Shown here: positions 44,477-49,450 of the stretch, in pieces
How the letters are laid out: each line of letters starts with the position of its first letter
Position numbering within the stretch: position 1 is the stretch's first letter
Origin: Candidatus Methylacidithermus pantelleriae
GTDB lineage: Bacteria; Verrucomicrobiota; Verrucomicrobiia; Methylacidiphilales; Methylacidiphilaceae
NCBI RefSeq assembly: GCF_905250085.1
Contig: NZ_CAJNOB010000012.1
Location: 62,001 to 126,000, forward strand
Reading direction: 5' to 3'
Length of the DNA: 64,000 nucleotides
Translations under genes and position numbers: made by a program
Notes under the pieces: generated by a model
What the model saw: only the letters and a program-made list of their open reading frames with translations
Databases searched by the model: none
Told to the model about the DNA's origin: nothing

Positions 44477-45050
44477 GGAGCCTCCTTTGAGTACAAGAAT
44501 TTTCCGCCAAAGTCGTAGTAACTAAATCCTTGCTTGTGCAGCTGAGCAAATGATTTTTGCTCCCTTGCGCCACAAGAAATTCCTGCGGCCCTACTTTCTC
44601 GGGCAGAAGATGCCACCTGAAAATAAGAGGCGGTGTAGAAAAAAACGCTTCTCACAAGCGGTTTCCCGATGGGGGATTCACTCTCGTTGAACCCAAGGAA
44701 CGCTCGGGTTGACCCTTACAGGACCATCCCAACAAAATCCCTGGAACGACCAAGGGACGGCTGCCACTCACCCAACCATCGAATCTAGCCACAAACTCGA
44801 CGCCCGGGATGGGACTCCTCCCCTTGTCACAATCAGGGGCAAGTACAACCCACAACGAAATCGCTTAGGATCACTCGCCTTCAGGCTACGATACCTGGGC
44901 AGTCGGAACTTTTGTTTTTTTCGGTATCCTCTTAACCTTGGTGGTCACGGGCTAAAAGCCCGTGAAGAAAATACCCCCCACCTTCTTAGGGTCCTTCCAT
45001 GCACCCTCCAGTCGCACACAAAAAAGCAAAACAACGCTTCAACTCGCAAG
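44477..45050. other. Intergenic stretch with one hairpin
   Basis: No supported gene. TCACGGGCT (44945-44953) and AGCCCGTGA (44957-44965) form a perfect 9-bp stem with an AAA loop, about 90 nt downstream of the luxI-like stop on the minus strand. No T-run follows in either direction, so it is only a possible terminator. Confidence 0.45.
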
Positions 45051-45731
45051 TCAGGCTGCCGCACTTGCTGACCACCGCAGGCTTTTACCAGCCGGTTGGG
45101 TTGCATGGGTCATCCACTCCAAAAAGCCCGGATTGTTTTTTGCCATCCTTCGACGGAACTCCTCGCAGTCAATCCGTGCGGCCATCGATTCGGTCAAAGC
45201 AGGAGGGATCCTTTTTGGCTCACCCAAGGGTTGGCATGGAAAACCGCATGCGCGCAACGCTCGAAAAAAGGTGGGTTCCACCTCAAGCAAAAGATAACGA
45301 ATATCATTTGCTAGCGCCCACTGATAGACAGCCTTGTAGAGGCACAAGGCGATTTTTCGGCGTGATTGTCCCTCCACGCGGGCGTCGGGATGCACGGCCA
45401 GGCGCGTGATCTCGGCGGTATCCTTTCCTTTGCACAACTCCCAGCCCGAACCCACAAGGCAGGCAAATTCCTTTTCGATCATAAACGGTGCCTCCGGAGG
45501 AAGCATCCGAACATAGCCAACCAGGTTTTCGGTCGGGTCAAAGATCCCCAAGGGAAAACCCAACGCATCGTAGCAATCGCGCTCCAGCCCCTCCGGAGAG
45601 GGCGGCACCCACCGGAGCTCCTCGCAAAACACCCGATGACGGAGCCGGTACCCAGCCTCGATCTCCCACGCTTGGCTAAGACTTCGAGCCTCAAGAGCTC
45701 CCTCAACAAAAGATATGGATTGGTAAGTCAT
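45051..45731 (-). CDS. LuxI-type N-acyl-homoserine lactone synthase homologue
   Basis: 226 aa from ATG 45729-45731. The autoinducer-synthase core is recognisable with residue spacing that equals the LuxI consensus: Arg31, Phe35 (LRHRVFCEELRW), Trp41, Asp52 and Asp55 (ERDCYD), Arg75 (VGYVRMLPP), Glu107 and Arg110 (AEITRLAVHPDAR). LuxI enzymes make acyl-homoserine lactones from SAM and acyl-ACP. The same GNAT-like fold is used by exosortase-associated acyltransferases, the main alternative. The C-terminal 110 residues (YQWALANDIRYLLLEVEP; FFRALRACGFPCQPLGEPK) also match the superfamily. No LuxR-type regulator is within the window. The frame is open upstream to GTG 45809, but that extension is not family-like. 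Confidence 0.78.
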   Translation of the reverse strand: MTYQSISFVEGALEARSLSQAWEIEAGYRLRHRVFCEELRWVPPSPEGLERDCYDALGFPLGIFDPTENLVGYVRMLPPEAPFMIEKEFACLVGSGWELCKGKDTAEITRLAVHPDARVEGQSRRKIALCLYKAVYQWALANDIRYLLLEVEPTFFRALRACGFPCQPLGEPKRIPPALTESMAARIDCEEFRRRMAKNNPGFLEWMTHATQPAGKSLRWSASAAA

Positions 45732-45759: not shown

Positions 45760-46825
45760 CTTCTGGGAGGCCCCTCAAAAACTATCCCAAGGGATAGGCA
45801 AAAACCCACCTTTTGGATAGGTCTACGGAAGCTATGCCTTTGGCGGGCTTATAGCCGGTAACGGGCGGTCAGGCTCCGGGGCCGTCGTTGGCTCCCATAG
45901 GCTCAATTAGCCGATGACCGCTCGAAAAATTGAACAGAAAAAGGGCCTTTGGCAGCACGACTGGCAAAGCGGACAGCAGAGAAAACGCATCGCCCCCAAA
46001 TCCCTGCCACGACGTGTGGGAATTGGTACCTGGTTTCGGGCCGGATGCAGCCAAAAATACCTTTAGCACGTGATTGATTCGCCTAATAGCCTCTCGCCCA
46101 TGGCCCCAGAAACGTCCACGATGTAGTGGACATTCTTCCGAAGAGACCCGAGAAGGAATCAAGGACGGTAAGAAAACCATCGAGCAATTGAGCCGGCAGC
46201 AACCTACAGCAGCATGCCAGCGGAAGCTTGCCACTGCCGGTTCAAGGAGAGTGCCATTATGTTGATGGAATGGGTTTGCATCCTCGGTTTGCCGTATGGG
46301 CGCCTGTGCGGCATTTATGCGCCAGTCCGGCACCAAGATGAGAAGAAAGGCCGAGGGAATGGACCGAGCGGGTGTGTGCCACAGGGCGGCAAGAAGCCGA
46401 GCAGAAGTAGACCCATCATGAAAAAGCGGGTGAAAGACTACCGGAGGTGGCAACGTCTGATGAGACCTTGGGGGATGGAGGTATCAAACAAGCGGCTCTC
46501 GCACCGGGTGCTTGCGGACCCAGGTGACGGCGATTGGGCTACGAATGGGCTCGGACCTCCGGACCAACTATCGAATTCGCACTCGCTCCAAAAAGAAGAT
46601 GAATCGGTGAGGTAAGGAAACGAAAGGGGTGCATCGCCGGAAAAAATGGAATCGGAATAGGCCTTGACGGGAAAAGAATGGCTTGGGTGCGTTTGGCCCG
46701 AAGTTTGTCCTTAAGACGCCCTGGAGGAGCGTTCCCGTTATCGCCAGGCCTGCCGGTGAATCACTCGGCGCGCTGCCTCTGCTTTCGGGACAGGAGCAAA
46801 AGCTGGATAGAGCGGGCAAAAAGAA
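45760..46825. other. Gene-poor stretch
   Basis: About 1 kb with open frames on both strands (longest on the minus strand, 45869-46453) that show no motif I recognise and no ribosome binding site. It probably holds decayed genes, like the broken VOC gene that follows. Confidence 0.4.
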
Positions 46826-47344
46826 ATGCAAAGGGGAAGCAATGTAACAACGCCGCCAAAGAATAGGATGTGCCTTTGGTATGATCGTGGCGCCGAAGAT
46901 GCGGCGGTTTTATGCCGACGCCTTTCCAGACTCGTCTGTCGGCGTTTTCCTCCGTGCTCCGGGAGAGTTTCCTTCGGGGAAAGCAGGGGCCATGTTCACC
47001 GTGGAGTTCACTGTCATGGGTGTCCCGTGCCTAGGGCTCAATGGCGGACCTGAGCTTACCCACAGCGAAAGTTTTTGGTTTTACGCGGCGCCAACTGACC
47101 AGGCCGAAACCGATCGCTATTTTGCCATGCGAACGTCGGCAATGGCAGCCAACAAAGCGTATACGCCTGGTTCAAGGACAAGAGGGGAGTGGCCTAGCAA
47201 ATAACACTGATAGCCCTCATGGAGGAGGCACTCACCGACCCCGATCCGGCCGCTGCCATGGGCGTGTTCAATCCAAGGATGCGGATTAGAAAGATCGATA
47301 TCGCTGCAATCGAGGCAATACGTCACGGTTTGAAATTCGCGTAG
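46826..47344 (+). pseudogene. Broken VOC-family (PhnB-like) protein
   Basis: The plus strand encodes a protein of the PhnB/3-demethylubiquinone-methyltransferase-like VOC fold in several frames. MCLWYDRGAEDAA lies in the first frame. After a frameshift near 46908 come RFYADAFPDSSVGVFLRAPG and FPSGKAGAMFTVEFTVMGVP, then CLGLNGGPELTHSESFWFYA. After a second shift near 47165 comes AWFKDKRGV, an in-frame stop, QITLIALMEEALTDPDPAAA and KIDIAAIEAIRHG, ending at TAG 47342-47344. The order and length equal an intact family member of about 160 residues, so this is a recent pseudogene with at least two indels and one nonsense codon. Confidence 0.8.
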
Positions 47345-47431
47345 CTTGCCAAAGCGTGGGATTCGGCGTCTTGTTTTTGAGGGAGTTATCATCATCTCGC
47401 TCAAAATCCCTTTGCCGATCTTAACCCCCTC

Positions 47432-47728
47432 CTACTTTGTTCTTGCTACTCCAAAGAATGCCTCTAAAATTCCCGTTCGCGATACCTCTTCCCGTACCCC
47501 TAAGCCCCCATCATCGAACGCCTCGTCCCAACCTGTAAGCCCTCCAGGGGGACAAGCTTCTGCCCTTTTTACACTTCCGCGAACAAGCTTTTGCGTTTCA
47601 ACCGGGAGCCGGCCCCATTGGCCCAATTCCTTCTCTTCGCCTTTTTTCGCCACCCGGTCCGACGGCCGAACCCCCACCTGCCGGTACACCTTTCCGTTGC
47701 GATAGCTACAAGGCTCGTGCACATACAT
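47432..47728 (-). pseudogene. Possible IS4/IS1634-type transposase N-terminal fragment
   Basis: The minus-strand frame from ATG 47728 reads MYVHEPCSYRNGKVYRQVGV and then VAKKGEEKELGQWGRLPVE. This resembles the opening of IS1634/IS4-group transposases (Met-Tyr-Val, NGKxY, then a short basic GK-rich stretch and LGxLP). The similarity stops after about 60 residues and no DDE motif follows. Weak evidence; could be chance. Confidence 0.3.
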
Positions 47729-48754
47729 GCCCACAACCTGCGGCACATGGCACTCTCCTGCCTAAATGCATGGATTCCCAACCGATTTCCATATCGGCCC
47801 TACACACTTTTCCATAAATCCTTGACTTGCACCTACAAAGGGCAAAAACTTGAGTAAGTTAACGTAGCTAACGCAAGACCCTTGGGCTTATGGAAGATTG
47901 ACCTTCCAACTCTTGGGCGTTGGCGTGTTTTTTGTGGGACCCACACATATTTCCATGTTGCTGTGGGGCCAAAAGCTGGCCTCCATGGTTTGCCGCTAGA
48001 CACTTTGGATCGTACCCAGAGCGATTACATCTTGTATCCAAGGCCGCCGTCATACTGATGAGCCCACACCTTGCCTGCAAGCATCCCAGCCGGTTGTCGC
48101 TGCGACCGATCAAAATGCAGAAGGGCTATTGTCGGAAACCCTGGTGCCCAACAAGCTACCCGACCACTGCTCCTCTTTCCACCGGCTCCTTGAGCGATGG
48201 GCAAACCTCTTGAGGTGGCCACACTTCTGTCCTTACCGCCTACCAGAGGGAGCCGAGGCCAGTCACGCAGCGCGATATGGGCGCGAAAGTCACCCAAACA
48301 CCGACCGCATCCAATAGCACAGACAACCGCCTGGTCGTCGCCACGGACATGGTTGAGCCGATGGTGTGGCCGGATGGACACCGCGATGTCTTCCAAGCAC
48401 GCAGACAGAATTGAGATTCCCATTCTCTATTGCATGGAGCTTTTGCCGCTCTTCTTGCCCCTGCTCCACCGCGTCCCGGCGGATTACCTCGACATCTGCC
48501 GGATATTGGTTTTCAAGGTGCCAGACTCAACTGCTCGGCCATACGAAAAACGAGGCGTTTTGGGGCGACGCGGCACGCCCGAGACAGCCCCCGGGTGAAA
48601 AACCATGGGACAGGCACTCATCTTAAACTGGTTTGGGTAGGGGGATCGGGTCTTTTCCCGGGAGTCGAGTTCTCCTGGCTCCCATCGTGCCTCTGGCTTT
48701 TTTCCTGGCTTTGACGGGCTTCTGGCAGGAGTCTCCCACTGCCGCGGAAGGAAT
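47729..48754. other. Gene-free stretch
   Basis: The longest open frame is on the minus strand (48025-48423). Neither it nor the plus-strand frames show a known motif. I see no gene; likely decayed DNA upstream of the regulator gene's 3' end. Confidence 0.4.
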
Positions 48755-49450
48755 TCACCCATTTTCCTGGGGCGTTTCCGAAACCATGGAAGGAGGTGGC
48801 ATCGGAACAAAAACCAAAAAGGAACACCGGTAAAGACCATTGGGACGAGCCTCTTCCCGGATGACGGGAACCCCCAGCACCTGCTCATAGAGTCGCTTTT
48901 CCAGTTCCCGGACTACCGGGTAAAGATCCAAAATGGGAAGGATTGGCGAATGATACTCTACGACGACCCAGGAATCCCCCTCTTTCTCTGGGCGCCGGAC
49001 TTCGGGCATATATCCTTGAACTTCTCGCATTGCCACCCATTGTCGGATCCTCTCTTCCAAAGCTACCTCGCCGATCTCCCGGGCTGCTCGTTCCCCCTCT
49101 CGCTGATAGATGCGGTAAAGGATCTTTAACGGTGTCGCGGGCCCGTACAAATCGGCAATGGTTTGTAAGATAGCGCAAGTAAGCTGCGTGTACTCATTGG
49201 GGAAAAACTCGTTGGCCCGAGGCGTCAATCGATAGGCTTTCTCCGGGCGACCGACCAACTTGGGCCTTCGACACGTGGCCAAAAAGCCTTCTCTTTCCAA
49301 GGCCACACAATGTTGCTTAATCCCCATATAGGAAAGTTTTACCCGCTTGCAAAGCTCCCCGACCGAAAGCCCATCGCTGCGTTTAATCTCAGAAAGGATT
49401 TGTAACTTGTGCCCTTTGAGAGCCTTGCGAGAGAATGAGTCGCTCATCAT
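48755..49450 (-). CDS. Winged-helix regulator, SufR-like
   Basis: 231 aa. An N-terminal ArsR/DeoR-type winged helix (LQILSEIKRSDGLSVGELCK; YMGIKQHCVALEREGFLATC) is followed by the LVGRPEKAYRLTPRANEFFP wing and linker seen in SufR-type regulators, which sense iron-sulfur cofactors. The effector domain keeps the general pattern VVEYHSPILPILDLYPVVRE and GLYRCSFLVF. Most cysteines that bind the [4Fe-4S] cluster in SufR are not apparent here (HSP stands where NCP is typical). It is divergent from serA, with 116 bp between starts, and may control it; that is inference. Confidence 0.75.
   Translation of the reverse strand: MMSDSFSRKALKGHKLQILSEIKRSDGLSVGELCKRVKLSYMGIKQHCVALEREGFLATCRRPKLVGRPEKAYRLTPRANEFFPNEYTQLTCAILQTIADLYGPATPLKILYRIYQREGERAAREIGEVALEERIRQWVAMREVQGYMPEVRRPEKEGDSWVVVEYHSPILPILDLYPVVRELEKRLYEQVLGVPVIREEARPNGLYRCSFLVFVPMPPPSMVSETPQENG

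Follow-up and report, generated by a model that had tools for sequence, protein, structure and literature searches.

A LuxI-type synthase gene and a probable split LuxI/LuxR quorum-sensing pair in a verrucomicrobial methanotroph

In LuxI/LuxR quorum-sensing systems, luxR commonly, but not obligatorily, lies next to luxI. The LuxI-type synthases of solved structure (BjaI, RpaI, MesI, TofI, LasI and EsaI) and the plasmid-encoded TraI share with the protein described here a GNAT fold, ten conserved residues, the pattern of SAM-site residues and tryptophan, and the presence within the family of a luxR partner. Our protein differs from them in sequence (~25–31% identity, and a separate, well-supported branch), in its host, a verrucomicrobial methanotroph, and in that its luxR is not adjacent. 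Acyl-homoserine-lactone (AHL) quorum sensing is known mainly from Proteobacteria, and has been reported from Nitrospirota and Actinomycetota (PMC8328516, PMC13136126). MbaI of Methylobacter (PMC6977074) likewise belongs to an aerobic methanotroph that uses AHL signals, but its host is a gammaproteobacterium, and we liken the two by description, not by sequence. For verrucomicrobial methanotrophs, PMC4338825 describes LuxR solos only, in Methylacidiphilum, which belongs to the same bacterial family as our organism. These solos have the Autoind_bind domain, as does the LuxR found here, but they are unaccompanied by luxI, and L57 and R85 replace W57 and W85. In the accessible literature we found no prior report of LuxI in Verrucomicrobiota; most subscription journals lie outside it, so novelty is unproven. 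Systems of the LuxI/LuxR kind are already known, and the points of interest here are the phylum, and a split arrangement with a remnant and a box still in place.

The DNA that was analysed, 'the window' in what follows, is a 64-kb stretch from Candidatus Methylacidithermus pantelleriae. Its relevant features are these:

45051–45731 (including stop), minus strand: luxI homologue, 226 aa, a predicted LuxI-type AHL synthase (PF00765, ten LuxI residues, fold matches)
45780–45799, minus strand: lux-box-like dyad GCCTATCCCTTGGGATAGTT, at -68 from the luxI ATG
45803–45822, minus strand: possible second, degenerate box ACCTATCCAAAAGGTGGGTT, at -91; weak, with 11 of 16 template positions
44985–45068, plus strand: decayed luxR 3' end, 84 bp, frame broken, convergent with luxI and overlapping its 3' end

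Autoind_synth (PF00765) is the top Pfam family for the luxI product (54 bits, E = 2e-14, cut-off 24), and is matched as well by all 12 of its aligned relatives. The nearest solved sequence is that of the 4-coumaroyl-HSL synthase RpaI, and the closest plasmid relatives carry an AHL synthase annotation. When a profile of 12 family members is compared with the PDB, it finds AHL synthases only: EsaI first (5e-15), then LasI, BjaI and others. Structure prediction gives the same picture. The AlphaFold model has a pLDDT of 88.2, with the final ~13 residues disordered, and its ten top PDB fold matches are AHL synthases (BjaI, LasI, RpaI, TofI and MesI chains; TM 0.60–0.69 on the query). An earlier note on this DNA, made from the letters alone, had proposed the LuxI-type assignment and suggested an HMM comparison and a structure prediction as checks; both bear it out. 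A phage search, and an Rfam search across the 64-kb window, found no match.

Two further Pfam families score against the protein, FeeM (PF21926; 34.4 bits, above its cut-off of 27) and Acetyltransf_5 (34.2 bits). The first of these, which in the fold search also ranks behind the AHL synthases, is what might be expected of a FeeM-like synthase of N-acyl amino acids, or of some other GNAT whose acyl acceptor is an amine different from SAM. We consider such an identity very unlikely: FeeM scores 20 bits below Autoind_synth and is not the best-scoring family, no FeeM chain is present among the PDB matches of the family profile, and the conserved LuxR partner and box, described below, would make no sense for FeeM.

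Ten residues are conserved across LuxI homologues (PMC9040811), and all are present in the window protein at LuxI spacing: R31, F35, W41, E50, D52, D55, R75, F89, E107 and R110. Eight of them (Arg31-Phe35-Trp41-Asp52-Asp55-Arg75-Glu107-Arg110) had been listed in the earlier note, each at its correct position; E50 and F89 complete the ten. The argument from the eight is weaker than it looks. Seven occur also in ten verrucomicrobial non-LuxI GNATs, proteins that weakly match TIGR03694 or PF00765, and so only Trp41, the one residue missing there, discriminates.

The same fold is shared by the exosortase/PEP-CTERM-associated acyltransferases, to which the earlier note had drawn attention as an alternative. 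The window protein scores 66.5 bits with their NCBIfam model, exosort_acyl (TIGR03694), level with the 66.6 bits that it scores with TraI, and both values fall far under the models' own cut-offs, which for TIGR03694 is 111.95 bits. The genome-wide search for exosortase genes that had been proposed gave no PF09721 match, and in the LuxI tree the window group is split from TIGR03694-like verrucomicrobial GNATs at 100/100. On these grounds an exosortase-associated identity is rejected as extremely improbable; the tryptophan, the LuxR and the box fit the LuxI pattern instead. In the same tree the clade of the window protein forms a well-supported branch apart from the characterised LuxI proteins included, and its placement inside its own group is not firm. 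We conclude that the product of 45051–45731 is very probably a LuxI-family acyl-homoserine-lactone synthase, predicted to be functional, and that this gene very probably provides a methane-eating bacterium outside the Proteobacteria with a cell-to-cell acyl-homoserine-lactone signal.

Other members of the same LuxI group, 31–42% identical to the window protein, occur in MAGs assigned to Myxococcota-type 'Deltaproteobacteria', Nitrospira and Pseudogulbenkiania (L002–L010, L013). Like the sister genus discussed next, these have a convergent luxR and a lux-box-like dyad upstream of luxI; unlike in the window, both genes are intact and stand together. In several of them an extra Autoind_bind protein is encoded beside luxR. 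This second, short LuxR-like protein is seen in the Myxococcota-type relatives L002 (4884–5489), L003, L005, L006, L008 and L010; that of L002, the one tested and confirmed, contains an autoinducer-binding domain but lacks the DNA-binding GerE domain. In two distant relatives, L012 and L014, the luxI frames are broken and there is no LuxR nearby, which indicates that the LuxI/LuxR system is sometimes lost.

Within the family, 13 genomes were compared: this one, seven of the sister genus (g2) and five of a third genus (g3). Both luxI and luxR are present in five of the seven g2 genomes, and neither in the other two, one of which is just 83% complete. The g2 LuxI proteins are 39–41% identical to that of the window and are preceded by the same dyad, but the g2 genes are linked, their 3' ends overlapping, whereas the pair in our genome is split and leaves a luxR remnant. 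In these five g2 genomes, and likewise in all ten distant relatives whose luxI is intact and whose sequence continues past it, a convergent luxR adjoins luxI, and in most cases the 3' ends overlap. Among g2 genomes, to which the calculation was confined because the window luxI is too diverged, dN/dS is 0.07–0.14 for luxI and 0.18–0.33 for luxR, with the overlapping gene ends excluded. A conserved gene of 131–143 aa diverges from luxI in all five luxI-bearing g2 genomes (L034:8586–9017, minus strand; equivalents in L035–L038). It came up, at a length of 142 aa, when conserved flanking genes were considered as possible targets of the circuit. It has no Pfam match, and the dyad lies in the intergenic stretch between it and luxI; such a gene is absent beside luxI in the window.

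All five g3 genomes have LuxR without luxI. W57, Y61, D70, P71 and W85 are kept in the LuxR proteins of luxI-bearing genomes, and the five g3 solos (L028, L029, L030, L031 and L032) all have W57L and W85R, changes that look as if the protein had been adapted to a different ligand, or to no ligand at all. The g3 residues (L Y D P R G) are those printed for Methylacidiphilum (PMC4338825). By this likeness g3 is probably Methylacidiphilum-like, and g2 then Methylacidimicrobium. Across the phylum, PF00765 scores over its cut-off in 2 of 388 sampled genomes, this one and one other, whose match is partial (28.9 bits) and groups with the GNATs that lack the Trp.

The earlier note held that no LuxR-type gene lies in the window. 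This stands for intact genes, and fails for the decayed luxR 3' end at 44985–45068, which occupies the place where relatives carry the 3' end of luxR; the 84 bp are all of luxR that adjoins luxI. The remnant aligns to the 3' end of a luxR gene on another contig, C51 (L022:1207–1298), with a score of 55, compared with maxima of 35 in 500 mononucleotide shuffles and 39 in 60 dinucleotide shuffles, and it is closer to this gene than to the luxR genes of g2. Conservation of luxI cannot explain the remnant, because 66 of its 84 bases are outside luxI, past the stop codon. More luxR sequence was sought upstream of 44985, and the alignments were no better than those of shuffles. On the other flank, the ~3 kb upstream of luxI (45810–48750) contain no recognisable gene, and a 194-aa ORF from this stretch, the one examined, matched nothing in Pfam. 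Beyond it, on the minus strand at 48755–49450, is a winged-helix regulator like SufR (72.6 bits, under the cut-off of 178.8).

The luxI homologue had also been described as being without a LuxR partner, and this is true of the window only. Statements about the genome rest on searches of the assembly (71 contigs, 2,459,655 bases), and these gave a single LuxR match over the Pfam cut-off: the C51 gene (L022, a contig of 4,751 bases), at 391–1320 on the plus strand. Its product has Autoind_bind and GerE domains and an intact AHL pocket (W57, Y61, D70, P71 and W85). Among the neighbourhoods compared, its highest scores are with the LuxRs that are linked to luxI in g2; in the LuxR tree it is not firmly placed, and carries a long-branch warning. 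C51 is unlikely to be a contaminant, since it shares a dispersed repeat with the genome and has a similar G+C content (0.542, versus 55.3% for the window). The repeat is ~390 bp long, with 24 genome matches (71–100% identical) and no Pfam match. Copies lie near both genes: at 47477–47871 in the window, 1.7 kb upstream of luxI, and at L022:1686–2078, 0.4 kb downstream of the C51 luxR. They could have mediated a rearrangement, a weak suggestion given 24 matches in the genome. Beside the C51 luxR, a search for a luxI remnant produced an alignment no better than shuffles, and a search for a box upstream of it produced nothing convincing. The most economical reading is decay of the local luxR and survival of another copy, which may have arisen by duplication, may have been moved, or may be an older paralogue.

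The dyad upstream of luxI is intact. Its core, CTATCCNNNNGGATAG, has a single exact occurrence in the 2.46-Mb genome, at luxI. The 22 bp that are shared between this region and g2 score 34, above all of 2000 shuffles. The g2 counterpart is ACCTATCCCTTCGGGTAGTT, or differs from it by one base, at -53 to -57 from luxI, and in all five luxI-bearing g2 genomes the 20-bp form without mismatch occurs at one place per genome, at luxI. The dyads upstream of luxI in other relatives include ACCTGTCCGAACGGACAGTT and ACCTGTCGTTTACGACAGGT, and, in Nitrospira, ACCTGGCGGATCCGCCAGGT; these are similar to the Vibrio fischeri lux box. The template score by itself is not significant, six places within the 64 kb being equal or better, and the evidence for the dyad is therefore its conservation and position. 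Allowing one mismatch, there are four places in the genome, versus two for a reversed control pattern, and none is compelling. A genome-wide search for target genes by means of the box found none besides luxI. The dyad points to control of luxI itself, with few other strong sites; degenerate sites are possible.

Taken together, we favor a split LuxI/LuxR quorum-sensing pair, with a probability of about 0.78: an AHL synthase encoded here, the C51 LuxR as its partner, and feedback at the luxI dyad. In the circuit that we infer, acyl-ACP or acyl-CoA would supply an acyl group, which LuxI would couple to S-adenosylmethionine, releasing an acyl-homoserine lactone. The C51 LuxR would bind the lactone and act at the dyad upstream of luxI, which would place luxI under feedback. 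The ancestral luxR would have lain tail-to-tail with luxI, the local copy decaying to the 84-bp scrap and an intact luxR being kept elsewhere.

Several observations count against this reading. The two genes are unlinked, the local luxR is a dead relic, and there is no clear box upstream of the C51 luxR; in addition, the LuxI clade branches apart from the characterised LuxI proteins, no target besides luxI came to light, and in the distant relatives L012 and L014 the system has been lost. The first three, along with the insecure position of the C51 LuxR in its tree, would be expected also if a working AHL synthase sat in a broken circuit, its true partner being the decayed local luxR, and the C51 LuxR an unrelated solo that controls something else. 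We think this unlikely, because luxI retains its frame, residues and dyad; because the C51 LuxR retains the AHL pocket, which the g3 solos do not, and finds its best scores among luxI-linked g2 proteins; and because the remnant is nearer to the C51 luxR than to the g2 genes. A larger proposal can be built on the split pair, although we hold it to be doubtful. The divergent LuxI branch that spans Verrucomicrobiota, Myxococcota and Nitrospirota might make a chemically distinct AHL; in the methanotrophs this would serve a private circuit, whose sole strong genomic site is the luxI promoter, and the split pair here would still work at a distance.

A single bacterial family, then, appears to include a genus with a linked pair, a genus with a split pair and a remnant, and a genus with a pocket-altered LuxR only. 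This contrast among three genera would be a natural series for the origin of LuxR solos, and the sister genus makes the series testable. A further question that follows is that of signalling between cells in soils that are hot, acidic and rich in methane.
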